Positions 697 through 17,405 of a stretch of 21,205 nt of DNA are shown in pieces. The notes below the pieces were generated by a model. That model saw only the letters and a program-made list of their open reading frames with translations. It was not told the origin of the DNA and ran no database searches. The DNA is from a virus. Made by a program: the position numbers and the translations under genes. How positions within the stretch are numbered: the first letter of the stretch is position 1; the number at the start of each line of letters is the position of its first letter. The DNA lies in the IMG/VR virus record IMGVR_UViG_3300013006_000149, positions 1 through 21,205 of that record. One strand, written 5' to 3'.

Positions 697-1617
697 TTAC
701 TGTCTAACGGTTTTAGTAAAGTACTTCCACTTATCCCACATAACGTTATTCTGCTTTAATAGCTCTTGGCTATTAGCTCTAATAGGATTAATATCAATAC
801 CACCACGCCTAACATACAGACATGATACCATTAGCTCTTCTGGCTTAACTAAATCATATAAGCGCTTGTAAATGGTTTCACAAATTTCTTCATGAAAATG
901 ACATTCATCTCTAAATGAGACAATGTACTGTAATAATGAGGTTTGGTTAAGCTGATAGGGTCCTTTATAATGAATATAAACATCCCCCCAGTCAGGCTGA
1001 GATGTGACCCTGCAATTACTCTTCAATAGGGCTGAATGAAAGCGCTGTACATTATTCGAATCACCTTCTGTCCAGCCGAGTAAGGAAGGATCTTCCTTAT
1101 AACCGCGAGACTTAATTGACGTAACGTCTATATTATTTTCTAAAGTAGGATAGTTAGCGGTAGAGAATAAAGGCGGATAATACATCGCATCATCAATAGC
1201 CTTTGTAAGCCTAACACAGACTCTAACTTCTGTTTCTAATAGTTTAGATAAATCATTTTCCATTACTGCCTCAAGCTGTTGCAATACACTGATAATATTA
1301 CCCTGGTACGTCTCCATATTAAACGAATTCATATAGAGCTTAATAGACTTTGACTCAACGATATATTTGTTAGTAGCAGGGTATACAACCTTAGCAATGG
1401 CAGCAATTGGCATCCCTTCATTAGTCAAGCACGATACTTCATACGCATTCCACACATCATACCCGCAAAACGGCGGCGCATCATCACTAATACCTAAATG
1501 TTTTCTATTGTTCTGTCTTGGCTCGCGAACCAAAAGAGAGGGGTCATAGGTACATTTGTACCCTGTTATTCTACCAAGATGCTTTGATATATTACTGTTA
1601 TCTAATTCCGTATTCAT
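697..1617 (-). CDS. queF: NADPH-dependent 7-cyano-7-deazaguanine (preQ0) reductase QueF, long type
   Basis: QueF reduces the nitrile of preQ0 to the aminomethyl group of preQ1 using NADPH. At 306 residues it matches the long two-module (E. coli-type) family, usually about 280 residues. Visible signatures are YDPSLL near residue 24, WNAYEVS (56-62), ESKSIKLYMNSFN (88-100), catalytic Cys202 in LLKSNCRVTSQPDWG with Asp209, FHEE (241-244), and the C-terminal RRGGIDINP. It is the last gene of a six-gene leftward operon and overlaps the upstream kinase by 20 nt. In the same operon as dpdA its likely product is preQ1 for insertion into phage DNA rather than tRNA queuosine. No preQ0-synthesis genes (folE, queD, queE, queC) are in the window, so preQ0 must come from the host or from elsewhere in the phage genome. 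Confidence 0.93.
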   Translation of the reverse strand: MNTELDNSNISKHLGRITGYKCTYDPSLLVREPRQNNRKHLGISDDAPPFCGYDVWNAYEVSCLTNEGMPIAAIAKVVYPATNKYIVESKSIKLYMNSFNMETYQGNIISVLQQLEAVMENDLSKLLETEVRVCVRLTKAIDDAMYYPPLFSTANYPTLENNIDVTSIKSRGYKEDPSLLGWTEGDSNNVQRFHSALLKSNCRVTSQPDWGDVYIHYKGPYQLNQTSLLQYIVSFRDECHFHEEICETIYKRLYDLVKPEELMVSCLYVRRGGIDINPIRANSQELLKQNNVMWDKWKYFTKTVRQ

Positions 1618-2176
1618 TAAGTTTTATTTTAATTGCTTCCATTCGTTCTTCAACTGTTCCTTTTAAAATAGTTACCTTACCTTTTAATCTTTCATCGGAT
1701 AACCAAAAGTTCTCATACTTATCAATTATTGCATCTCTAAATTCTTTATTAATACTTCTCTCTCCATCATCCACCAGCGGAACATCATGGGGGCTTGGAT
1801 AAAAGATATGATCATACCTATGAATATGATTCACATAGTACATTAATCCCAGACTATTAGATACAGGAAAATCATTTAGCCTGTCTCGAGCAAAATAACT
1901 TGTAAACACCATTCCATCCATTATACAACGATCATGTAATATACCTTGAAAATTAAAACCTTTATAATCATAAAACAAATTTTCAAACTCTTTATTAAGA
2001 ATTAAAGTCTGAGTTACATCGTTTGCACCCGTCTCATTAATGTCAACACCATACTCGCGTTTAATTAGCCTCGTAACCTCATCAATATAACACAATTTCG
2101 AACCATAATACTCTTTACACTTCTTTAATAGTGTAGTCTTACCTGAACACTGCGGACCTGTAAAAGTAAATATCAT
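1598..2176 (-). CDS. P-loop nucleotide kinase-like ATPase (NadR/AAA_28-like)
   Basis: A 192-residue protein with an N-terminal Walker A motif GPQCSGKTT (residues 7-15), a following IDE-type acidic segment, a DR motif (LHDRCIMDG) in the middle and a C-terminal helical lid-like part. This arrangement fits small P-loop kinases such as the NadR kinase domain or deoxynucleoside monophosphate kinases. The start at 2176 is preferred over the upstream ATG at 2185 because it gives an ATGA overlap with the stop of the preceding gene. Inside a 7-deazaguanine DNA-modification operon a nucleoside or nucleotide kinase role is plausible, but the substrate cannot be read from the sequence. Confidence 0.8.
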   Translation of the reverse strand: MIFTFTGPQCSGKTTLLKKCKEYYGSKLCYIDEVTRLIKREYGVDINETGANDVTQTLILNKEFENLFYDYKGFNFQGILHDRCIMDGMVFTSYFARDRLNDFPVSNSLGLMYYVNHIHRYDHIFYPSPHDVPLVDDGERSINKEFRDAIIDKYENFWLSDERLKGKVTILKGTVEERMEAIKIKLNEYGIR

Positions 2177-2520
2177 TTGCCCCACTTACCATTATATACT
2201 ATTTCCGCAATAATGCCATACACTGCAGAATCTCTAAACGCATCCATAACTGGCTCATTTGCAGAGCTCATTGCCTTCTTCTTTAAAACTAAATTAATTA
2301 AGCGCTGAATTTTATCATTAAGACGAACCACAATAGCGGATATTGCAGCAAATTTATCTTCTTGTTTTACTAAATCTGAGCCAAGAGAAATATTGCCTGG
2401 GCCGTAGTCAAACTGCTTTTTACAGAATGTCTCATATAATTCAGCTTGTATTTTCTGAAACTCTTTACACGTCTCCGGAAAATTTTTTTCTACGTATTTA
2501 ATGGCATCCTCTTTATTCAT
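2173..2520 (-). CDS. Nmad1 (DUF1599)/MazG-like nucleotide-modification-associated protein
   Basis: This is a 115-residue all-helical protein. It shows a DYGPGNIS element (residues 39-46), a charged helix with NDKIQRLINL, and NEPVMDAFRDSAVYGIIAEIV towards the end. That pattern (DYG, then R-x-x-DK-x-x-RL-x-NL, then NE-x-x-x-D-x-x-x-D-x-x-x-Y) fits the small phage family called nucleotide modification associated domain 1, which resembles MazG-like NTP pyrophosphatases. The ATG follows GGTGAG by a few bases, a recognisable ribosome binding site, and overlaps the guaC stop by 4 nt. A role in cleaning or channelling (deoxy)nucleotides for DNA modification is inferred from family and context. Confidence 0.7.
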   Translation of the reverse strand: MNKEDAIKYVEKNFPETCKEFQKIQAELYETFCKKQFDYGPGNISLGSDLVKQEDKFAAISAIVVRLNDKIQRLINLVLKKKAMSSANEPVMDAFRDSAVYGIIAEIVYNGKWGK

Positions 2521-3476
2521 AATCTCACCCCGTAATTCACTTTATTTAAATTTAACGAACCGAGATTGCAACCACCTGCATAACTAATTGCACTCTGTAA
2601 ATCCTGCTTTATTTCTTCAAGTTTTTCTAGATACGTAAAGGTATCAGTATCCATAAGCTTCATTGTACCTTCAATATTCTTTTTTTCAATTTTATTATGT
2701 ACACTGGCTGATCCAAAGTATTGCTTAAACCGTCTTCCACTTGCATCTTTAACAAGAGGTGCAGGACTATCAGAACATGCAGCAAATATGGACCCACACA
2801 TCACCATATTAGCACCTGCAACCAATGCCTTAGCAATATCACCATTACTACGCACACCGCCATCCGCAATAATAGAAATATTTTTATCTTTAGCACACTC
2901 CATAATACAGCTAAACATCGGATAAGTGAATCCTGTCTTGTCTTTTGTTGTACATGCATATCCGCCACCAATACCAATCTTTACAGCATCAGCTCCTGCA
3001 TCATGTAAATACTCTACACCTTGAAATGAGGCTACATTACCAGCGATAATTTTAGCGGACGGTAGTACTTGTTTAATATGCCTAATCTGATCTGCTACTT
3101 TTAAATGATGACCATGCGCAACATCTATTGTAATAAAATCGACCTTCATCATGCTTTGCCCAATAGCTGTTAATATATCTTTATCTTTCCGCTGTATACC
3201 GATGCTTATAGATATAATATTAAATTTACGTGAATTTGCATACCGAACAAAGCTTTGTATATCATTATCAAACCGGTGCATAATATAGAAATAACCGTGT
3301 TTATCCAAAAGCTCGCATGTGCTCTCATCAACACAGCATTTCATATTAGCAGGAAGGACTGGTAGTTTGAAATCATATCCACAGAATAATACGTTTGTAT
3401 CAATCTCTGCTCTCGACTTTATTGTATTATAATTAGGCTTGAGAAATATATTCTCGTAATGTAGCGATATATCCAT
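2517..3476 (-). CDS. guaC: GMP reductase (IMPDH/GMPR superfamily, GuaC type 2)
   Basis: GuaC converts GMP to IMP and ammonia using NADPH. The 319-residue TIM-barrel protein follows the Bacillus-type GuaC along its length: LPVLPANMKCCVDE near residues 39-51, YFYIMHRF (62-69), ITIDVAHGHH (115-124), AGNVAS, the catalytic loop KIGIGGGYACTTK with Cys175, IIADGGVRSNGDIAKAL, and the C-terminal DLQSAISYAGG. These last features and the lack of CBS domains favour GMP reductase over IMP dehydrogenase. It sits 1 nt after the formyltransferase and overlaps the next gene by 4 nt. In this operon it may rebalance purine pools or recycle guanine released during base exchange. A retargeted activity on a deazapurine nucleotide is possible but unproven. 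Confidence 0.9.
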   Translation of the reverse strand: MDISLHYENIFLKPNYNTIKSRAEIDTNVLFCGYDFKLPVLPANMKCCVDESTCELLDKHGYFYIMHRFDNDIQSFVRYANSRKFNIISISIGIQRKDKDILTAIGQSMMKVDFITIDVAHGHHLKVADQIRHIKQVLPSAKIIAGNVASFQGVEYLHDAGADAVKIGIGGGYACTTKDKTGFTYPMFSCIMECAKDKNISIIADGGVRSNGDIAKALVAGANMVMCGSIFAACSDSPAPLVKDASGRRFKQYFGSASVHNKIEKKNIEGTMKLMDTDTFTYLEKLEEIKQDLQSAISYAGGCNLGSLNLNKVNYGVRL

Positions 3477-3477
3477 T

Positions 3478-4050
3478 TTATCGTTCTAAAATCTTATATG
3501 CTGTAAAAAAGCTTTTCCAGAGGTCCAGAGCAGTATCACGTAGTGCACCATATACACCATCCAGAGTCATGCCTTCAATGCTTACTCCCTGACTCATTAA
3601 TATCTCTCCCTCATCTACACCGGGTGTAACTTTATGTATAACACAGCCTGCAAGTTTATAGCCTTCTGTAAAAGCTCTCTCTTGAGGGTTATAACCTTTA
3701 AGCGAAGGAAATTTATCTATAAGCCCGGGATGTAAGTTATATATTTCATATTGCTCGCAAATTTCTTTTGGAAGAATTCTTAGATATCCGTGTAATGTAA
3801 TTATAGGGTCTTTATACTTAGATAAAACATTTTTATAATCGATTAATTCAGGTTTAGGTGGGATATGACACCAGCAATGCGTCATATTAAGCTTTGTTGC
3901 CCTAAATGTTGTCAGCTCAATTAGCTTTTTATTCACCCCATCTGTATTATGCTTATTAAGGATTACACAATCAGGATATACTCCTAATGCATTACTAAGA
4001 TCATAAATCTCAGTACCTGTTTGCGAAAAAAATGCTACCCAAGGTCTCAT
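3478..4050 (-). CDS. GART/PurN-fold formyltransferase, candidate preQ1 formyltransferase
   Basis: A 190-residue formyltransferase-fold protein. The family's catalytic triad is visible as Asn105 and His107 in YNLHPGL and Asp146 in PGVDEGEIL. The supporting elements LHGYLRILP (residues 86-94) and FPSLKGYNPQERA (114-126) are also present. PurN transfers a formyl group from 10-formyl-tetrahydrofolate to GAR, and related enzymes formylate other amines. Here the gene starts inside the dpdA stop (ATGA overlap) and is followed 1 nt later by guaC, so it belongs to the DNA-modification operon. A formylated preQ1 derivative has been reported in some phage DNAs, which makes the aminomethyl group of preQ1, free or in DNA, the most attractive substrate. 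That substrate is inferred. Purine biosynthesis is the alternative. Confidence 0.85.
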   Translation of the reverse strand: MRPWVAFFSQTGTEIYDLSNALGVYPDCVILNKHNTDGVNKKLIELTTFRATKLNMTHCWCHIPPKPELIDYKNVLSKYKDPIITLHGYLRILPKEICEQYEIYNLHPGLIDKFPSLKGYNPQERAFTEGYKLAGCVIHKVTPGVDEGEILMSQGVSIEGMTLDGVYGALRDTALDLWKSFFTAYKILER

Positions 4051-4853
4051 CTACGAATAATTTTCTTAAACATTGTAGTATTATACTTTACTAGTTCAAG
4101 CTGATCATCTGTAAAATTATGCGTAATAAGATCAGCTAATTTTGTTGCTGGCTTATTATCTAGCCCATAATCAGCATCGTACTTCAATCCATGTATAGCA
4201 GCAACAACGGGATTACTGGTATCGCAGCTAACAATATTGTAAATATTTCTATCAACATAAAATCTAAATTCCTTAGCTAAAGAGCAACCAAGCAGGTGAT
4301 GGGGTTTATTCCAATTCCATATTCCATTATTTATCAAATCTTCAATAAAGCGCTGACGACCAGTACACCATTTTTCAAGATGTGACTTCCCCTCACCAGT
4401 AATCTGATAATAACTAAAATCAAAACTTATTGCAATCATATCTGCGTTATCAGACATAAACTTATAACACTCTTTTAGTTCATACCAAGTTTTACCTTGT
4501 ACTGCGCCTATAGCTTTTGTATGAAAGTGTTCCTTGATATCTTGTGTATATAAAAGAAATTCCTTATAACTCTGCACAGTACCTTGCATATCTTCTAAGA
4601 CATCCGGAACAATAAACATATTAGGCTTAATTTCTTTAGCTTTTGTCCAAAATTCTCGACTATCAAAAGCTTTACCTAATTCAAAAATAGAGTTATCAAG
4701 CAGCACTTCTCTATCATAGGTAGACCTAGCAGATTTAAAAAAATCGTTATATAGGGGGTATTGATCTAATAAATGTACTAGACAGTAATCAAAATCATTA
4801 TATTCACGAGAAAAATCAAGTAAGGATATAGGCGACTCGTGTGATACTTTCAT
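4047..4853 (-). CDS. dpdA: DpdA-like DNA guanine transglycosylase (7-deazaguanine insertion)
   Basis: DpdA proteins are relatives of tRNA-guanine transglycosylase that exchange guanine in DNA for a 7-deazaguanine base. The 268-residue protein shows LLDNSIFELG (residues 51-60, candidate catalytic Asp53), PDVLEDMQGT (83-92), GAVQGKTWYEL, ISFDFSYY, KPHHLLGCSLAKEFRFY and SCDTSNPVVAAIHG (candidate nucleophile Asp211). This matches the short phage DpdA type. I chose ATG 4853 because AAGGA lies 7 nt upstream; ATG 4859 is possible. The longer frame to 4991 would overlap the divergent spike gene and is unlikely. It is the first gene of the operon dpdA, formyltransferase, guaC, Nmad1, kinase, queF, which strongly supports a role in DNA modification against host restriction. 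Confidence 0.88.
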   Translation of the reverse strand: MKVSHESPISLLDFSREYNDFDYCLVHLLDQYPLYNDFFKSARSTYDREVLLDNSIFELGKAFDSREFWTKAKEIKPNMFIVPDVLEDMQGTVQSYKEFLLYTQDIKEHFHTKAIGAVQGKTWYELKECYKFMSDNADMIAISFDFSYYQITGEGKSHLEKWCTGRQRFIEDLINNGIWNWNKPHHLLGCSLAKEFRFYVDRNIYNIVSCDTSNPVVAAIHGLKYDADYGLDNKPATKLADLITHNFTDDQLELVKYNTTMFKKIIRR

Positions 4854-4865
4854 TAGCATATCCTT

Positions 4866-4894
4866 ATTATAAATGTAAATAATAGATAGATCAA
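4866..4894 (-). promoter_or_regulatory. Candidate sigma70-type promoter for the DNA-modification operon
   Basis: On the minus strand TTGATC (4889-4894) and a perfect TATAAT (4866-4871) are separated by 17 bp, ahead of dpdA. Its expected start near 4859 would leave almost no leader. It overlaps the divergent late promoter-like box of the spike gene. Confidence 0.45.
4868..4875 (+). promoter_or_regulatory. Late promoter-like octamer TATAAATG before the spike gene
   Basis: TATAAATG differs from the T4 late consensus only at the last base. It lies 20 nt before the ATG at 4896, a longer spacing than for other genes in this window. Confidence 0.4.
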
Positions 4895-4895
4895 C

Positions 4896-7736
4896 ATGAA
4901 TTATCCGAAATATTATGGTAATTATCTGGGTATAGTTGTACAAAATAATGACCCACAAAAAAGAGGTAGAGTTAAAGTTTTTGTACCCCATGTCTCACCT
5001 ACTGTTTATAAGAAATGGAATGAAGTATCAAAAGACAAGAAATTTAGATTCTTAGGGGCAAACGTTTGTAGTGATTTGACAGAAATTCTAGAAGATCTTA
5101 AGAAAATATTACCTTGGGCAGAATTAGCAACCCCACTTGTAGGCGAGAGCGCTAGCGGTAGATATAATGCTCATTTAAATGCCGCTACTATTAGCGATAG
5201 TAACGATGTAAGTACAGCGTTTTCAAGTATAACATCATATGAACCGTCAACGGATACAGATCAATATAATCAGAATCAAGACAATATCGGTGAAAAGCCG
5301 GGTAATATATTTGATATATCTTATTATAAGTTAAAAGATGCGTTTTCTGATCCTAACGAAACAGGTGTTAATAATGTTAATATTTTTTCATTTAACTATA
5401 CACCTGAATGCTATAGTAATTGTGCAAAAGGATCATTTCCTTTATTGCGTGTAGGTTCCCATGTTTGGGTATTTTTTAATAGCGGAGACCCTCTTAGCCC
5501 TGTAATATTTGGCGCCTCGTATGGATCTGAGGATTGGAAGAGTATACACGACATACCGGACACCAGCATTGCTTCTCTTTCTGCACAATCTGACGAGGGC
5601 ATCGATTACCCAGGTACGTACGAGAATATTTCACAACAGCAAAACGATACGTATGATATTAATACCGAGACATATCGTAACAAATATATTATAAATCAAA
5701 AAGGTGGCACCCTATCTTTTGTTAATACAGATAACAAAGAAATGCTGAAATTAACACATTACTCCGGTTCATTTAAAGAATTTAATAATTATACAACTAT
5801 TGAATTAGCTACAGGAAATGATCAAAAATTAGTCTTAAACGATCAATTTTTAACTGTAAGAGGTTATAGAAATGAGTATACAGACTTTGATTACGACCTT
5901 ACAACCCGCGGTGATGTATATAGAAAGATAGGTAATTTAAATCGCGCTGCACATCAATCATGGAAGGATATATACAAAGATGTTGCTGATACAAAGCAGC
6001 TATTTGAAATACAAAGATCCGCGGGAGCAACAGGAACGGGCGGTATATCGCTAGCTTCTAGTCTTCAAAGTAGAGCAGGTGCACCAGATGACTGCCCAGT
6101 TTGTAATAAGAATATTAATACCTACAATGTAGTTAATAATTCTTACAATGATAATACGTTTATAAATAAAACTAACCCTACAACCTCAAGCAGCAAAGGT
6201 AATCAAGTTTTTGGAAACTCGGTATCACCATCTGGAGTTATTAAGAGCGTCTTAAACCCGGGTAATCTAGGAAATACATTTCGTGCTACACCTACACAAT
6301 CATTAGATAATTCTGTCGATGGTTCCACTGGTTTTAACGCACCTGGATATATTCACGGTGTTAAATGCCCGTATTGTAAAGGTACAGGTAAAAATCCGGG
6401 ATCACGTGGTGGCAGTTGGAATAAAGATCCAAGAAAGCAAAATCTTTCTGGACTTATTAAGAGTAAGATGAGGCCTCTTGCTGCAGCAGAAAAAGAAATG
6501 GGTCTTGGTGGAAGCGAGATAGTTGAAATAACTAAACATAAAATCGAAACAATAGGTATGGTGATGAATGATTATGGGTCATTGCGTATTGACCCGGAGG
6601 GAAAGAGCTATATATCCGAAGTAAATGTTGGAAAATACGGCACATTTTATAATAGAGCTGCAACCCCTTTAATTGAACCTGTACATACTGATGATTTTCC
6701 TAGTGGTAATTATACTCTAACCGTCGGTAATAAATATAATATACTTGTTGGTGCCGGAGGTGTTAACTTAAAATCATATGGTCATGTTAACATAAGTGGG
6801 GCAATAACAACAGTTGCGGGGTCGCAAGTAAATATTGGGAGTGAGAATGAAATTAACATTGACGGCGGAAAGCGTATCAGCCTTATAGCTGATGTCATTA
6901 GTATAAGACAAAGAAAGAAAAAACAAGTCGTCGTCGACGGCTCTTTAGGCGTTACAACCAATCTTGTAATTGGCGGTGGCTTGCATGTAGAAGGTGAATT
7001 AACAGTTAACCATATTACAGGCCCTGCAGAAGTTCATTCTACAGAAGAAGCATATTGTTTTGCCTCACCTGCCACCGATGTAGGAAACGGACGCGGTGGT
7101 ATAATAGGGTTTGGTGTTCCTCTCTATGATCTACCAGTACCAGTACAGGAGGATGCTGGTAGTAATTTTGACCCCGAAAACATACCTGGTGGTGAACCTG
7201 CGTTTGTGGGAGTTACGGATAGTACTCGAGTTGTAGGTCAAATAGGATTAGGAGCACCTATTATAATTGGTTATATACCACCTGAAACAGTAATTACTGA
7301 AGTTGCAGGTGGGGTAGGTACTAAAAATATACTCCCCATACCTATATACGGTGGTATACCTGATGCGTTTGACCCCGCCGGTGCACCTGTTAGTGTTGCA
7401 CCTTCGCCTTGTGTAAATGGAACAGATGATCTCGGTCTAGCAAACGTTAGAGGCGCTTATGGTGCAGGCCCGCTAGCACCTGAAGCAATTAATAATACTA
7501 GTGCTAAATTCATGCCAATTGTTATCTACGGAACTGGTGCAGATCCCGATAGTATATTAGTTAGTAAGCATAGCCATTTGTTTAAAACAATAGCTTCAAC
7601 TTTAACAGAAACAAATAAACAAACAAGAGATGTAATGCGTAATGCGGGTTATACTGCAGCACCTGCTCAGCCTGTCTCCAATGCACCGAATGGCGCTAGC
7701 GGTAGTACAGACAACGGTAATGCAGAAGGTAGCTAA
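4896..7736 (+). CDS. gp5-like baseplate central spike/hub protein with OB-fold and zinc motifs
   Basis: A 946-residue protein. The N-terminus (GIVVQNNDPQKRGRVKVFVP, residues 13-32) is the typical start of a gp5/VgrG-type OB-fold domain, continued by PWAELATPL and by FPLLRVGSHVWVFFNSGDPLSPVIFG. A long middle part carries two zinc-type pairs, CPVC near residues 400-403 and CPYCKGTG near 491-498. Next comes a beta-repeat region (about 600-720) rich in short G/N/I/V repeats typical of the trimeric spike beta-helix. No lysozyme domain is visible, unlike T4 gp5. The C-terminal 230 residues are Gly/Pro/Ala-rich with a late SKHSHLFKTIA segment. The product would form the membrane-piercing tip under the tail tube. 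It is divergent from dpdA and convergent with a small leftward gene 4 nt away. Confidence 0.82.
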   Translation: MNYPKYYGNYLGIVVQNNDPQKRGRVKVFVPHVSPTVYKKWNEVSKDKKFRFLGANVCSDLTEILEDLKKILPWAELATPLVGESASGRYNAHLNAATISDSNDVSTAFSSITSYEPSTDTDQYNQNQDNIGEKPGNIFDISYYKLKDAFSDPNETGVNNVNIFSFNYTPECYSNCAKGSFPLLRVGSHVWVFFNSGDPLSPVIFGASYGSEDWKSIHDIPDTSIASLSAQSDEGIDYPGTYENISQQQNDTYDINTETYRNKYIINQKGGTLSFVNTDNKEMLKLTHYSGSFKEFNNYTTIELATGNDQKLVLNDQFLTVRGYRNEYTDFDYDLTTRGDVYRKIGNLNRAAHQSWKDIYKDVADTKQLFEIQRSAGATGTGGISLASSLQSRAGAPDDCPVCNKNINTYNVVNNSYNDNTFINKTNPTTSSSKGNQVFGNSVSPSGVIKSVLNPGNLGNTFRATPTQSLDNSVDGSTGFNAPGYIHGVKCPYCKGTGKNPGSRGGSWNKDPRKQNLSGLIKSKMRPLAAAEKEMGLGGSEIVEITKHKIETIGMVMNDYGSLRIDPEGKSYISEVNVGKYGTFYNRAATPLIEPVHTDDFPSGNYTLTVGNKYNILVGAGGVNLKSYGHVNISGAITTVAGSQVNIGSENEINIDGGKRISLIADVISIRQRKKKQVVVDGSLGVTTNLVIGGGLHVEGELTVNHITGPAEVHSTEEAYCFASPATDVGNGRGGIIGFGVPLYDLPVPVQEDAGSNFDPENIPGGEPAFVGVTDSTRVVGQIGLGAPIIIGYIPPETVITEVAGGVGTKNILPIPIYGGIPDAFDPAGAPVSVAPSPCVNGTDDLGLANVRGAYGAGPLAPEAINNTSAKFMPIVIYGTGADPDSILVSKHSHLFKTIASTLTETNKQTRDVMRNAGYTAAPAQPVSNAPNGASGSTDNGNAEGS

Positions 7737-13063: not shown

Positions 13064-14257
13064 ATGGCAGAAACAATCACAAAGATTTTAATTCGTCAAG
13101 GTACTGACATACAGCGAAGAACAGCTAACCTTACAGGTGTTGTTTTTAATAGCGGCGAGCCCGGCTATTGTGTTGATACAAAAAGGCTTTATATTGGCGA
13201 TGGAAGCACTAGTGGTGGAAACGCCATCGGTATACAGAATCTTGGCATAGTTCCTGTTTTATTTGGCAACGATACAAACGGCTGGTCTTATGAAGCATTA
13301 GAAGTATTCGGTACAAAAGGAGCTGCTGCGGGCGATATAATTTACGATCGCGATACTAGAAGTCTTTATGCCCTTTCCAGTGTAACATCTTTCCCGCCTA
13401 CAACTGCAGATCTTGTCCAATACGATTTCTCAACTCTTATTAACGCCTCACAGTTTGAATATAATACTAGTAAGCAGCTACAAATAAAAAACGGAGGTAT
13501 AGGTCCAACACTGCTCAGTCTTACAAACGTCGACGGAGAGACGCTAACAAAACCATCTCTTGGTGCACCTATCTCTGTTAAAGAAAATGGTATTACTAAT
13601 CTTTATCTTGACAAAACACCATCAAATAGTATTAAAGGCAATTTTAGAGAGTTTACAGAAACACCTCAAGACTTTTCTGTACCTCCAAATACCGTTGTAG
13701 GAAGAACAGCTACATCTAATCTAACAGCGTTCCCCTTTTCAACCGTTCTCAATACTGCGGTGTTCGGCGGTCAAAATGGTATACTTGTAGATCAAACAGG
13801 TACTGTTCCCATATGGAAGCTTGATCCTGCATTGCTTACAGTTACAAGTGCTGCTATTACCCTTAAGAAAAATTCTTTCATTCAAGGATTTATCGATATT
13901 ACCGGTAATACTATTGTTCGCGGTACTACTCAGTGTTACGGAGACGTTATTGCTTACTATACCCCTTCGGATAGACAGATAAAAGAAAATATTAAGATTC
14001 TAGTTTCACCACTTGATAGAATCGATAAGATCTCAGGTTACGAATTCAAATTCAATAATAATGCTCCTAAACACTTGCAAGGTAAAGAATCATATGGTGT
14101 CATAGCTCAAGAACTCGAAGAGGTGCTACCTGCTGCTGTAGAATTTAGAGGTGAAGAAAATATTAAGGGTGTAAACTATGAATTAATTATACCTTTATTG
14201 ATTGAAGGTATAAAAGAGCTAAGAAAAGAAATTAAAAAATTAAAAAATGAAATTTAA
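13064..14257 (+). CDS. Tail fibre/spike protein with C-terminal peptidase S74 intramolecular chaperone
   Basis: A 397-residue fibre protein. The N-terminus (about residues 9-50) has the common fibre start with SGEPGYCVDTKRLYIGDG. The middle is beta-rich. The last 96 residues form a peptidase S74 domain beginning at Ser302 in SDRQIKENI, with Lys307 as the expected partner of the Ser-Lys dyad. It continues with GYEFKF, YGVIAQELEEVLP and VNYELIIPLLIEGIKELRKEIKKLKNEI, the last a coiled coil. In this family the domain helps trimer assembly and then cuts itself off before the Ser, leaving a mature fibre of about 301 residues. A late promoter-like box precedes the start. The small gene 14247-14441 begins inside its last codons. 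Confidence 0.88.
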   Translation: MAETITKILIRQGTDIQRRTANLTGVVFNSGEPGYCVDTKRLYIGDGSTSGGNAIGIQNLGIVPVLFGNDTNGWSYEALEVFGTKGAAAGDIIYDRDTRSLYALSSVTSFPPTTADLVQYDFSTLINASQFEYNTSKQLQIKNGGIGPTLLSLTNVDGETLTKPSLGAPISVKENGITNLYLDKTPSNSIKGNFREFTETPQDFSVPPNTVVGRTATSNLTAFPFSTVLNTAVFGGQNGILVDQTGTVPIWKLDPALLTVTSAAITLKKNSFIQGFIDITGNTIVRGTTQCYGDVIAYYTPSDRQIKENIKILVSPLDRIDKISGYEFKFNNNAPKHLQGKESYGVIAQELEEVLPAAVEFRGEENIKGVNYELIIPLLIEGIKELRKEIKKLKNEI

Positions 14258-14441
14258 TTTGTTGGTAAATAGCTTGCTGGAAGGGTTTAACAATTTTCCA
14301 CAAAACCAAACTGCTCCAAGTACAGGTCCAGATATAGGTATGACTAGCGGCGATCAACAGAATACTTTTCCAAGTAAAATGGAAACATTAACACTAAAAT
14401 TACCTAAAAAGAAAAAACTTAAGAAGCTGAAAAAAGACTAA
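14247..14441 (+). CDS. Small Lys-rich protein with capsid-targeting-like N-terminus
   Basis: A 64-residue protein. Its first 12 residues, MKFNLLVNSLLE, closely match the start of the lysozyme encoded convergently next door (MRFNRLVNVILE) and end in LLE. T4 internal head proteins carry such leaders, which the head protease gp21 removes after (I/L)xE. The body is Gly/Ser/Thr/Gln-rich and the tail is strongly basic (LPKKKKLKKLKKD), suitable for DNA binding. The gene overlaps the fibre gene by 11 nt and is presumably on its transcript. Packaging in the head is inferred. The 3' end overlaps the lysozyme gene by 23 nt. Confidence 0.72.
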   Translation: MKFNLLVNSLLEGFNNFPQNQTAPSTGPDIGMTSGDQQNTFPSKMETLTLKLPKKKKLKKLKKD

Positions 14442-14985
14442 TAATTTTCTCAGCTCTTTTGCCTACTTGTGTAGCCCATTTACTGTTTTTCAACTCGCTT
14501 GCTGCACTTTTGTAATCACCGCTAGTAATAAATTGTTTTGTCTTAACAAATTTACTTAACCGACCGTAGCCTAGGTTGAAGGACATATCTAAAAGCCCTA
14601 GTTTAATATTTCGCGGTAAATTATCAAAAGAAGGTATATATTGCTTTACATCTTTGTAAGCTATCTGCATACACATTTCAAAAAGCTTTTTTATCTGCTC
14701 TTTATTAAGATCATCTGTACCATTCTTAATGTTATCATAATTTGCGTTTACTCTTGCTAATAAATCTTTAGCATCGGGTCTAAGTAAATTAAAACCAATA
14801 CCAATGGTAGGTATACCGCGAGAATCTAAATAAACATGAGGTCTCACGCCTTCATGCGCTTGAATTAAGTCTTTTATATCATCGAATGTAAGTTTTGTAT
14901 CTTCTGCTTTTCGTATTATTGCAGGAGGCGGCGGCATATCTGCCACAGCTTCCAATATAACGTTAACTAGCCTGTTAAATCGCAC
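14419..14985 (-). CDS. T4-type lysozyme (glycoside hydrolase 24) with capsid-targeting-like leader
   Basis: A 188-residue muramidase that would cleave the NAM-NAG bond of peptidoglycan. The GH24 catalytic triad is visible as Glu45 (AHEGVRPHVY), Asp54 (YLDSRG) and Thr60 (IPTIGIGFNL). The C-terminal helices NLPRNIKLGLLDMSFNLGYG and NSKWATQVGKRAEKI match the family. The first 12 residues (MRFNRLVNVILE) resemble those of the neighbouring Lys-rich protein and end in ILE, a T4 gp21-type cleavage site. A Pro-rich linker (MPPPPA) follows. The start is GTG at 14985, supported by ATTAAATA 5 nt upstream. It could be an ejected, head-borne lysozyme or a conventional endolysin; a signal-anchor role for the N-terminus is the alternative. 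Confidence 0.9.
   Translation of the reverse strand: MRFNRLVNVILEAVADMPPPPAIIRKAEDTKLTFDDIKDLIQAHEGVRPHVYLDSRGIPTIGIGFNLLRPDAKDLLARVNANYDNIKNGTDDLNKEQIKKLFEMCMQIAYKDVKQYIPSFDNLPRNIKLGLLDMSFNLGYGRLSKFVKTKQFITSGDYKSAASELKNSKWATQVGKRAEKIISLFSAS
14425..14455. terminator. Possible bidirectional terminator between convergent genes
   Basis: AGCTGA (14425-14430) pairs with TCAGCT (14450-14455). The stem extends weakly into A- and T-runs, with T-rich sequence on both sides. It lies exactly where the rightward 14247-14441 and leftward lysozyme genes meet and overlap. Confidence 0.4.
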
Positions 14986-14990
14986 TTAAT

Positions 14991-14998
14991 TATTTAAT
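14991..14998 (-). promoter_or_regulatory. Late promoter-like octamer ATTAAATA before the lysozyme
   Basis: The minus-strand ATTAAATA ends 5 nt before the GTG start at 14985. It overlaps the stop of the upstream 3D-domain gene. Confidence 0.45.
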
Positions 14999-15569
14999 TA
15001 AGCACTGCTACCTTTACAATTTTTGGATGTGAGTCTGCAAAATCAATAGCATCACTTTTGTTAACAAAGAATACATCAATAACGGGAAGCTTACCACCGG
15101 AAGCTACCTTACCCACAACAGCAGAGCCTGTATCAACAGCCTTAACTAGACCCACGTTAGGTATGATAACTTCTTTATTATAGGGGATGATACGCGGATC
15201 AACAGCAATAGAATCACCTTGCTTAAGGGTATATCCTGTTGAGCTTCTCATTCTGCGACTATCCGCATCGGTGCCTGCTCCACGCGCCCAATATACAGTC
15301 AATCTAACTGTAAGTACTTTGTATTCGCCGCTATCTGTATTAGGAATAAAAGCGCCATTATATTTCATACCGTCCTTCTTTACTTCAATTTTCTTAGCTA
15401 CCTCTTGTTCCTTTGCTGGTGTTAGCGATTTTAGTTCTTTCTTAACATCCTTAACAGTTAGCTTCTTTTCTATTCGCTGAAAAGCTGATATGCTAACAGG
15501 ATTAGTAGTTATAATTAATCCTGCGATGATTAGTATTAGTTTATTTGTTTTTGTGTTTTTTGTTTTCAT
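14994..15569 (-). CDS. Secreted 3D-domain (MltA/RlpA-like double-psi barrel) cell-wall protein
   Basis: A 191-residue protein with a basic N-terminus and hydrophobic core (LILIIAGLIITTNPVSISAF, residues 11-30) typical of a Sec signal peptide. A charged linker (about 31-75) follows. The C-terminal domain has VYWARGAGTDADSRRMRSSTGYTLKQGDSIAVDP, then VKAVDTGSAV, then PVIDVFF. The Asp residues in the last two match the 3D domain of MltA-type lytic transglycosylases and related double-psi beta-barrel proteins. It lies 8 nt before the lysozyme gene, so the two probably act together on host peptidoglycan during lysis. It lacks the rest of MltA, so catalysis is likely but not certain. Confidence 0.78.
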   Translation of the reverse strand: MKTKNTKTNKLILIIAGLIITTNPVSISAFQRIEKKLTVKDVKKELKSLTPAKEQEVAKKIEVKKDGMKYNGAFIPNTDSGEYKVLTVRLTVYWARGAGTDADSRRMRSSTGYTLKQGDSIAVDPRIIPYNKEVIIPNVGLVKAVDTGSAVVGKVASGGKLPVIDVFFVNKSDAIDFADSHPKIVKVAVLN

Positions 15570-15573
15570 AGAT

Positions 15574-15597
15574 TAAAAAAGAAGTCGCAACGCGACG
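15574..15597 (-). terminator. Intrinsic terminator after the phosphoribosyltransferase gene
   Basis: On the minus strand GTCGC (15596-15592) and GCGAC (15588-15584) form a GC-rich hairpin with a GTT loop, followed by TTCTTTTTT. It ends the leftward phosphoribosyltransferase transcript just before the 3D-domain gene. Confidence 0.75.
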
Positions 15598-15628
15598 GCC
15601 AAATAGGCGTTAATGTATGTATTAATAT

Positions 15629-16087
15629 TTAATCTAGTTTAGAGGTTTCCCAAGGAAAGTCAAGCCATATTTCGTCGGCAAATTTCTTTACATAAAAATT
15701 CGGAACAAATTTAGTATTTTTCTTCATATAAAGAGTAGCAAATTTAAAGTTTGTAAATTGACAAGATTCAAAATAATCTTTTGCCGCACTTAGTGTTGCG
15801 CCTTTGTCGGATAGATCGTCAACAACTATAACGCGCTTATCTCTAAATTCAGAATTAAACTTAACCCCTGGGATTTGATTAATAATTATTTCGCCGGCCC
15901 TTTCATCCTTATATGAAGACATGGAAAAATTAACTATGGGTATATTATGCAAATATGCAATAAATGTACCGGGTATAAGACCCCCGCGACCAATAGCTAC
16001 TATAGCATCACATGATCCAATATCTCTTGCAAGTTCCTTACAGTCTCCAAGAAGCGTACCCCAACTTATATCATAGCGTTGCGACAT
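15629..16087 (-). CDS. Purine phosphoribosyltransferase, Gpt-like
   Basis: A 152-residue type I phosphoribosyltransferase. The PRPP-binding signature VIVVDDLSDKGATL spans residues 86-99 (Asp90-Asp91), and an N-terminal AIVAIGRGGLIPG loop (29-40) contacts pyrophosphate. Size, the hydrophobic start and the short C-terminal WLDFPWE segment resemble xanthine-guanine phosphoribosyltransferase (Gpt), where a W-x-x-F/Y-PWE motif is common. It would convert guanine, xanthine or hypoxanthine plus PRPP into the nucleotide. With dpdA and guaC in the same window it could salvage guanine set free from DNA, though this link is inferred. A perfect ACGTTA/TAACGT inverted repeat (16088-16102) lies directly upstream of the ATG, and a terminator follows. 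Confidence 0.85.
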   Translation of the reverse strand: MSQRYDISWGTLLGDCKELARDIGSCDAIVAIGRGGLIPGTFIAYLHNIPIVNFSMSSYKDERAGEIIINQIPGVKFNSEFRDKRVIVVDDLSDKGATLSAAKDYFESCQFTNFKFATLYMKKNTKFVPNFYVKKFADEIWLDFPWETSKLD

Positions 16088-16102
16088 ACGTTATTTTAAC
16101 GT
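16088..16102. repeat. Inverted repeat ACGTTA-TTT-TAACGT upstream of the phosphoribosyltransferase
   Basis: A perfect 6-bp inverted repeat with a 3-nt centre touches the start codon of the leftward phosphoribosyltransferase gene. It could be an operator or an RNA hairpin hiding the start. No direct evidence for either. Confidence 0.4.
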
Positions 16103-16117
16103 ATATGCATTTAAAGT

Positions 16118-16390
16118 TCAATTATTATTTATTACCTCAGATATGTCCTTATGAAGTTGCTTCATGTTCATAAGGATATACGAATAATCTTCCTTAAGAC
16201 CTCTGCCAGCTCTTTTTGACATATTATTCAATTCAGCTGCAATACGCTTTTTAATACCACTAGCTTCTTCTTGCTCATTACGCATATTACCGTAGTCTAT
16301 AACCTTATGGCTATAGCCGGTATTATTCGCAGTAGTATGATTTATACCCTGATTATAGGCCTCGCTAATAGCCTTAATATCACTGTTCAC
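16118..16390 (-). CDS. Small protein with T4-like capsid-targeting leader (possible internal head protein)
   Basis: A 90-residue protein starting at GTG 16390, supported by CATAAATA 5 nt upstream. The first ten residues (MNSDIKAISE, then AYNQG) end in ISE at residues 8-10, followed by Ala. This is the same position and motif as in T4 internal protein leaders (I-A-E/A). The protein encoded at 17026-17373 starts alike (MNNDCHLIYE, then AYTSQG). The body is helical and charged, with several Lys/Arg and Asn. I do not recognise it beyond this. Packaging with DNA and delivery into the host is the natural inference, by analogy with T4 IPs. Confidence 0.72.
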   Translation of the reverse strand: MNSDIKAISEAYNQGINHTTANNTGYSHKVIDYGNMRNEQEEASGIKKRIAAELNNMSKRAGRGLKEDYSYILMNMKQLHKDISEVINNN

Positions 16391-16397
16391 TTAAATA
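16390..16397 (+). promoter_or_regulatory. Late promoter-like octamer CTTAAATA
   Basis: The plus-strand CTTAAATA ends 8 nt before the GTG at 16406 and begins on the first base of the divergent gene's start codon. Confidence 0.35.
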
Positions 16398-16403
16398 TTT
16401 ATG
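16396..16403 (-). promoter_or_regulatory. Late promoter-like octamer CATAAATA
   Basis: The minus-strand CATAAATA ends 5 nt before the GTG at 16390. It overlaps the opposite-strand box, so the two divergent genes share about 14 bp of promoter. Confidence 0.5.
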
Positions 16404-16405
16404 CT

Positions 16406-16636
16406 GTGGATAAAAATAAAAAGCGTAAAGAAGAAGCAGCCAAGAAAATATGTGAATATGCAATGTATTATAAAGTTTGTGAAGGTTGTGAGTCGGTTAT
16501 ACTTTTCGATAGTACTTTTTGTCCGGTATGCGAGGGCTATAGGTTTGATGAAGATATTAACCGTGTAATAAGGACTGCTAGCGCATTAGCAAAAAAAGAA
16601 AAAACGGATATATTACCCTCTGACGATTTTATCTAA
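16406..16636 (+). CDS. Small zinc-ribbon protein
   Basis: A 76-residue protein with a basic helical N-terminus (DKNKKRKEEAAKK). A four-Cys zinc ribbon follows, CEGC then CPVC (about residues 25-42, FDSTF between). The C-terminal helix is rich in Lys and Ala. GTG at 16406 is chosen because the open frame upstream runs through the divergent gene without a plausible start. Small zinc ribbons like this often bind nucleic acid or RNA polymerase; a regulatory role is possible but not shown. It ends convergently, overlapping the next leftward gene by 24 nt. Confidence 0.7.
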   Translation: MDKNKKRKEEAAKKICEYAMYYKVCEGCESVILFDSTFCPVCEGYRFDEDINRVIRTASALAKKEKTDILPSDDFI

Positions 16637-16777
16637 CGGAATATAGTCGTTAAGATATTTTGAAAGGAGTATAACGCGTCTCATTATTTCTTCCTTTTTA
16701 ACGCCTTTATTTTTTTTAGCCTTCTCGTAAAGGTCTAAAATCTCATCAGCGGTAACTTTTTTTCTATCCGCTTTCAT
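16613..16777 (-). CDS. Small helical charged protein, unrecognised
   Basis: A 54-residue protein. The start at the internal ATG 16777 is supported by AATAAATA exactly 5 nt upstream, with the same spacer as at 7937. The sequence is helical and Lys-rich (ILDLYEKAKKNKGVKKEEIMRR...) and may form a short helix-turn-helix-like bundle, but no family is recognised. It overlaps the convergent zinc-ribbon gene by 24 nt at the 3' end. Confidence 0.62.
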   Translation of the reverse strand: MKADRKKVTADEILDLYEKAKKNKGVKKEEIMRRVILLSKYLNDYIPLDKIVRG

Positions 16778-16782
16778 AATAT

Positions 16783-16790
16783 TATTTATT
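16783..16790 (-). promoter_or_regulatory. Late promoter-like octamer AATAAATA
   Basis: The minus-strand AATAAATA ends 5 nt before the ATG at 16777. Confidence 0.55.
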
Positions 16791-16834
16791 CTTATCAAAG
16801 TTGCATTCCTATGCAAGCATGTTAATATAAACAT

Positions 16835-17029
16835 ATGTCAAACATTAATCCCCTCACATTACAAGAACACGTCGCAACCTTCACTGCCGAATACGAGAAG
16901 TTTTCTGGCGGTAATAACGCAGCGGGTACCCGCGCGCGCAAAGCCCTTCAGGAAGTAATTAAATTTGCTCGTGAAGCACGTAAGGGCGTTCAAGAAGAAA
17001 AGAACGCTCGTAAAGCTTCTAAGTCTTAA
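16835..17029 (+). CDS. Histone H1-like (Hc1-type) DNA-binding protein
   Basis: A 64-residue basic protein. The segment YEKFSGGNNAAGTRARKALQ and the following AREARKGVQEEKN match the bacterial histone H1-like family (chlamydial Hc1 type), in which a YxKGNKAAGTRxRKxLQ helix is the hallmark. The Lys/Arg-rich end (ARKASKS) fits DNA binding. The first residues (NPLTLQE then H) also end in LxE at 9-11, so a cleaved leader is conceivable but less clear than in its neighbours. It may condense phage or host DNA. A TATAAACA sequence (16826-16833) lies just upstream. Its stop codon is shared in a CTTAAG palindrome with the convergent gene. Confidence 0.75.
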   Translation: MSNINPLTLQEHVATFTAEYEKFSGGNNAAGTRARKALQEVIKFAREARKGVQEEKNARKASKS

Positions 17030-17373
17030 GTTTTCTTTGCTAGACGCTTCCGTTCATTGCGGTGAACGGAAGCTACAGCTTGTACCACTTGCGTTGCTCG
17101 GTCTAAACCGTCAACCGTTCTATATACTGCCTCTACAATATCGTAAGCTGCATGTATTGCTTTACGGTCTGTATCAATATCTTCCAAAGTAATTGTTTTC
17201 GTCTTTTTTGGTTTTTCTTCGTTTTCCGCTCTGCTCATAGAGGCAACAGAAGGTGGCGGAGTAACAGGTGTACTTACCTTTGGTGATAAATTAGTTGTCG
17301 CTGAATTAAGCGATACCGCAGGTGTACCTTGGCTTGTATAGGCTTCATATATAAGGTGACAATCATTATTCAC
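17026..17373 (-). CDS. Protein with T4-like capsid-targeting leader (possible internal head protein)
   Basis: A 115-residue protein starting at GTG 17373, supported by AATAAATA 5 nt upstream. The leader MNNDCHLIYE, then AYTS, ends in IYE at residues 8-10 and matches the leader of the protein at 16118-16390. Next comes a low-complexity Ser/Thr/Pro linker (about 15-60) and a Lys/Arg-rich helical C-terminus (ASVHRNERKRLAKKT), which could bind DNA. Family not recognised. The 3' end encodes a perfect 11-bp hairpin and overlaps the stop of the H1-like gene by 3-4 nt. Confidence 0.72.
   Translation of the reverse strand: MNNDCHLIYEAYTSQGTPAVSLNSATTNLSPKVSTPVTPPPSVASMSRAENEEKPKKTKTITLEDIDTDRKAIHAAYDIVEAVYRTVDGLDRATQVVQAVASVHRNERKRLAKKT
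17046..17073. repeat. Perfect 11-bp inverted repeat within a coding end
   Basis: GCTTCCGTTCA (17046-17056) and TGAACGGAAGC (17063-17073) are perfectly complementary around a 6-nt loop. It lies 17 nt after the H1-like stop and inside the codons of the convergent gene. With no T-tract on either side, it is better seen as a 3' stabilising or blocking hairpin than as an ordinary terminator. Confidence 0.7.
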
Positions 17374-17378
17374 CTAAT

Positions 17379-17386
17379 TATTTATT
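17379..17386 (-). promoter_or_regulatory. Late promoter-like octamer AATAAATA
   Basis: The minus-strand AATAAATA ends 5 nt before the GTG at 17373. Confidence 0.55.
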
Positions 17387-17405
17387 CGTTAGACGAATAA
17401 TAATG

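Follow-up and report, generated by a model that had tools for sequence, protein, structure and literature searches.

Head proteins that enter the host cell with the DNA have their precedent in IPI and Alt of T4 (PMC3012670, PMC9026906). Ten residues suffice for targeting in T4, an Asp at position 10 stops the cutting and not the targeting, and the specificity of the prohead protease gp21 is L/I-X-E (PMC9026906). In the giant phage SPN3US, cleavage follows A-x-E or S-x-E, and several of the propeptides are longer than 100 residues (PMC5694885). The Dar proteins of phage P1 are reported to act against restriction, to associate with the head and to be connected with its morphogenesis (PMC12810830).

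The window, as we call the DNA analyzed here, comprises 21 kb (21,205 nucleotides) from IMG/VR and is a fragment of a T4-like bacterial virus that has not been cultivated. It encodes four proteins with short N-terminal leaders ending in a Glu. We think it probable, at roughly 0.77, that these leaders are modular capsid-targeting propeptides cut by gp21, resembling those of the T4 internal proteins but with new leaders and new cargo. This reading, already proposed in the initial annotation, draws its support from gp21 and gp23 in related contigs, from the match to L/I-X-E and from the exchange of leaders at the predicted Glu.

Four leader-bearing genes in the window

All four reading frames and their leaders are as the initial annotation had described them, with the Glu at residues 12, 12, 10 and 10, and the bodies behind the leaders are unrelated to one another, as it had also claimed. 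One is a GH24 lysozyme, the only one of the four with a name; the proteins of 64, 90 and 115 aa have no family in Pfam or PHROGs. The leaders end in LLE, ILE, ISE and IYE, all fitting L/I-X-E.

The 64-aa protein (14247..14441, + strand, ATG start) has a 12-codon leader of the class we call A, MKFNLLVNSLLE, followed by GF (14247..14282), with the cut predicted after Glu12 (LLE|G). Its gene overlaps the 3' end of a tail-fibre gene and converges on the lysozyme gene. The protein is very basic, and its C-terminus is very Lys-rich. Among orthologs in about 13 contigs, nearly all have (I/L)LE|(D/G)F while leader residues 3-9 vary, and two with a shortened leader end in E|DF nonetheless.

The 188-aa lysozyme (14419..14985, - strand, GTG start; PF00959, 5e-11) also has a class A leader, MRFNRLVNVILE (14950..14985), with a predicted cut after Glu12 (ILE|A), where leaders are exchanged among orthologs; AVADMPPPPAII follows. 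Residues E45, D54 and T60, which we take to be catalytic from knowledge of T4 lysozyme, are invariant in the ortholog alignment. Directly upstream lies a gene for a secreted-looking 3D-domain protein (PF06725; 14994-15569, - strand) that is kept in relatives; in one of them, G002, an additional 220-aa ORF stands between the two.

The other two proteins have leaders of a second class, which we call EAY. That of the 90-aa protein (16118..16390, - strand, GTG start) is MNSDIKAISEAY (MNSDIKAISE|AY; 16355..16390), with a predicted cut after Glu10 (ISE|A). Its orthologs have phi-x-E in 11 of 13 cases; I/L and Glu are kept except in L008 and L068, which are without the Glu, and the residue preceding the Glu is free (S, A, N, C, V, I). 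The 115-aa protein (17026..17373, - strand, GTG start) begins with MNNDCHLIYEAY (MNNDCHLIYE|AY; 17338..17373), with a predicted cut after Glu10 (IYE|A). Behind the leader are a disordered variable linker and a C-terminal helical hairpin with a basic end. AlphaFold2 places helices at 6-13, 63-86 and 90-114, with low confidence for 14-57, middling confidence for the hairpin and a mean pLDDT of 62; leader helix, disordered linker and helical hairpin, as seen in both sequence and model, fit a T4-type layout. Nearby, at 16835-17029 (+ strand), is a 64-aa Hc1 histone-like protein (PF07432) at whose N-terminus neither leader class can be clearly recognized; it is 94-100% identical across relatives, whereas its neighbours are only 40-70% identical.

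In three of the four genes, the GTG start stands directly behind an AAATA element resembling the T4 late promoter. These elements are TAATTAAATAATTAA directly upstream of the lysozyme GTG (14986..15000), AGCATAAATATTTAA upstream of the 90-aa gene (16391..16405) and CGAATAAATAATTAG upstream of the 115-aa gene (17374..17388), all on the - strand.

Leader classes and head genes in related contigs

When the lysozyme and the 115-aa protein served as queries, 18 loci were recovered, including contigs of 158, 140, 76 and 67 kb. Both leader classes occur throughout this clade of uncultivated T4-like phages. The exact DNA pattern for MNKDxxLI(F/Y)EAY matched 76 stretches in IMG/VR, and a permuted peptide of equal degeneracy matched 0; we estimate the chance expectation at 0.01, assuming 5e10 bases and two strands. 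The 77 EAY ORFs fall by their bodies into 17 BLAST clusters, two of which are probably the same lysozyme-like protein, leaving about 16 unrelated bodies. The protein sequence of the leader is kept while the codons vary, giving 68 different 36-mers among the 77. A scan for leader A, M(K/R)F(N/D)xLVx..LE, gave 46 stretches in 23 clusters, or about 16 once truncated and implausible ORFs are removed. The clusters being BLAST-made, remote relations between bodies are possible in both counts, and the IMG/VR collection is redundant. Since orthologs in other contigs retain the window leaders, the matches far exceed both expectation and control, and the codons vary, the recurrence is above chance.

The two classes share a record in several cases (L087 and L157, which are one contig; G001). 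The scan beyond the window that the initial annotation had called for thus widens its set of four: all four are real, but the 158-kb relative G001 alone has about 10 proteins with these or similar leaders. Elsewhere the cargoes include GH24 lysozymes, SleB-like hydrolases (PF07486), a DUF5661 protein, an ExoX-C-like protein, two weakly ParB-like proteins (below the Pfam cut-off) and many small basic proteins. Leaders are 10-12 residues long in the window and about 20 or about 48 on other proteins, and they persist across a clade with 40-70% protein identity. The residue P1' behind leader A is variable (A, G, D, K, Q, N). In one contig (IMGVR_UViG_3300046698_000515; L091 and L098), three EAY ORFs whose bodies are unrelated follow one another, possibly as a cargo island.

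A relative of leader A without the Glu, MKFDxLVxxIL(Q/M/T), is found on a CTP_transf-like protein. In G001 this is a NadM-like nucleotidyltransferase (L033 5232-5882; G001:100232-100883) starting MKFDTLVEQILQ, with Gln replacing Glu; its relatives have Met or Thr at that position.

The elements seen in the window recur with the leaders. An AAATA element lies within 20 nt of the start for 63 of the 77 EAY leaders, versus 27-33% of large ORFs. An (L/I)xE lies within residues 6-14 in 26% of the 225 ORFs whose starts are late-promoter-like, versus 11% of 238 other ORFs; the associated p=4e-5 is optimistic because the ORF sets include orthologs.

The initial annotation had named a gp21-type protease as a check on its proposal. 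Both gp21 (PF03420, E ~1e-35) and gp23 (PF07068) are present in four relatives (G001, G002, G004 and G005), and gp21 is found in all six further leader-bearing records of at least 109 kb; none was found in the 21-kb window, as expected of a fragment. The GELNHP and SSR motifs of T4 gp21 are kept. The gp22-like scaffold contains 14-17 (L/I)xE, versus about 6.0 +/- 2.1 in shuffles (2.3-2.8 fold, p<=0.0005), which is expected if the protease has the specificity of T4 gp21. A conserved pro-piece of gp23 ends KWCFE|A near the T4 gp23 cut site, although the alignment is loose there.

Identity to cyanophage gp23 is below 33% among the matches listed, and judged by such comparisons the clade is far from named phages. 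Searches of named phages by tblastn with the gp5-like protein, the leader alone and the 300-aa EAY family gave no matches, and the clade could therefore not be linked by sequence to any phage whose virion proteome has been published. To our knowledge, there is no virion proteomics for the clade itself. Named-phage homologs of the small basic protein, the nucleotidyltransferase and the SleB-like enzyme are distant, and their starts are not decisive; C48C1 has the start MKKFKQYIDEG, which is like the T4 CTS by eye.

Leader boundaries at the Glu

The strongest evidence, as read from the alignments, is a natural leader swap at phi-x-E. The window lysozyme and its orthologs in L001, G002, G005 and L159 have leader A, while those in L119, L011/L015 and G004 have an unrelated leader B of about 48 residues, starting M(H/D)xExxxQLYGG(E/D)ISD(Y/F)Y. 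In G001, the lysozyme slot is occupied by a SleB-like hydrolase with the same kind of leader. This enzyme has leader A in G001, L007, L064 and others and leader B in L008, so that each of the two leaders is found on each of the two enzymes, four combinations in all. At every junction, phi-x-E stands immediately before a common PP-rich linker, D(x)PPxPPAI (ILE|AVADMPPPPAII, LLE|AAVDLPPQPPAIV, VRE|AADLPPLPPAII, FKE|GVDVPPPPPAII, LKE|EIDLPPQPPAII, VKE|AIDLPPPPPAII).

Further leader-A SleB-like hydrolases, 40-44% identical to the G001 enzyme, occur in L140, L156, L158, L164 and L169. A junction of the wall-hydrolase type is also seen on a third unrelated body, a 368-aa protein (L033 2909-4015; G001:97909-99013) with ...NWLME|AIADAPPPAPN about 33 residues in. 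Module B was considered as a third leader with many cargoes, but a pattern scan gave a single BLAST cluster, consisting of the two hydrolases and small proteins of 57-139 aa; its spread is therefore narrower than that of the other two leaders.

In the EAY class, 60 of 74 proteins have a second (L/I/V)xE between residues 13 and 24; in the three 12-residue segments that follow, the counts are 3, 4 and 3 of 74. The scan had demanded E10, but not this second site. Counted once per cluster, the figures are 9/16 versus 1/16 (p=0.006).

For the lysozyme and its SleB-like replacement taken alone, the enzyme could be an endolysin or a head-borne hydrolase for entry. A plain lysis endolysin, its leader incidental or serving to keep the enzyme inactive until lysis, would fit the finding of just one GH24 or SleB-like gene in each relative and the usual position of that gene directly downstream of the 3D-domain protein. 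We nevertheless consider it less likely than not, since non-lytic proteins, small basic and nuclease-like ones among them, have leaders of the same class, and since the swapped-in leader of about 48 residues likewise ends in phi-x-E at the same junction.

An alternative for all the leaders is that they may dock elsewhere in the virion, as uncut peptides for the neck, tail or baseplate, and that the Glu recurs as one residue of the motif used for docking. The leader genes lie between tail-fibre genes, module B also exists away from the head cluster as a small protein of its own, and the two 90-aa orthologs and the leader-A relative without the Glu keep the remainder of the leader. Those three exceptions also mean that cleavage is not universal and that targeting may not always involve it. 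However, the swapping of unrelated leaders precisely at phi-x-E and the second phi-x-E that the scan had not demanded point to a protease, and in T4 the gp21-type protease acts only in proheads. We regard docking outside the head as improbable, and the Asp10 result in T4 (PMC9026906) could accommodate the exceptions under capsid targeting. That the shared starts are a DNA-level effect, a recombination or translation-start element with no targeting role, is very improbable even though they sit at the start codon beside late-promoter-like elements, since residues are kept while codons vary and the leaders endure across so diverged a clade.

Proposed delivery with the DNA and comparison with known systems

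The computation shows that the leaders are conserved, modular and exchanged at the Glu, that they occur with late-promoter-like starts, and that relatives have gp21, gp22 and gp23; under capsid targeting and cleavage by gp21, the steps we infer are docking, cleavage, packaging and injection. Late in infection, the leader would dock its protein into the prohead, at a scaffolding core of the gp22 type. A protease of the gp21 type would cut after the Glu of (I/L/V)-x-E, releasing the mature protein inside the head, where it would be packed with the DNA to be ejected into the next host. The leader would then be a reusable address: one leader could serve many unrelated cargoes, and one cargo could switch leaders at the scissile Glu. 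Probably, then, the four window proteins travel in the head and reach the cell together with the DNA, and the exchange at the Glu would give a sharp prediction of their mature N-termini.

The suggestion that the four form a co-injected anti-host or anti-defence set found no support. The analogy to T4 IPI is its only basis; PADLOC models gave no match to the four window proteins, nor was there any defence-related match, and one of them is a lysozyme with intact catalytic residues. For the leader class as a whole, an anti-host role is plausible by the precedent of IPI and Alt, and no more than that. At 697-4991 (- strand), the window has QueF-like (PF14819/PF14489), GMP reductase-like, formyltransferase-like and kinase genes and a gene for a 314-aa protein; a QueE-like gene is present in G001 as well. 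Taken together, they hint at DNA modification with 7-deazaguanine, which, if true, would make head-borne anti-restriction proteins interesting.

The lack of any relation among their bodies makes it difficult to find the phage proteins that accompany the DNA into the cell. Should the leaders prove to be signals for capsid targeting, searching with a pattern of 36 bases already yields about 30 families of candidate injected proteins in this uncultivated clade. Tentatively, we extend this to a plug-in delivery code of the clade, in which interchangeable leaders, exchanged where gp21 cuts, would bring a changing assortment of proteins into the host. Among these would be a wall hydrolase carried in the head, of GH24 or SleB-like type; it could stand in for the lysozyme domain that the gp5-like baseplate protein of the clade lacks, only an OB domain having been found there. 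Were this true, injected proteins could be listed directly from environmental sequence, and the wall hydrolase would be head-borne rather than baseplate-borne.

Among known systems, P1 Dar is similar in having head-associated proteins but belongs to another phage family (PMC12810830). The giant phages phiKZ and SPN3US likewise have many inner-head ejection proteins cut after Glu at a short motif, by a gp21-related protease; this clade differs in having leaders of 10-50 residues and the motif (I/L/V)-x-E. The closest likeness is to T4 IPI-IPIII and Alt, which have a CTS cut by gp21: in both systems a short N-terminal propeptide ending in (L/I)xE is common to unrelated proteins, and the clade likewise has gp21, gp22 and gp23. 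Beyond the short motif, the window leaders are unlike MKTYQEFIAE in a by-eye comparison with the T4 copies, which were located, and the system of the clade is predicted from sequence. It also differs from T4 in having two widespread leader classes and a third module, and in its cargo of GH24 and SleB-like wall hydrolases and ExoX-C-like, weakly ParB-like and small basic proteins.
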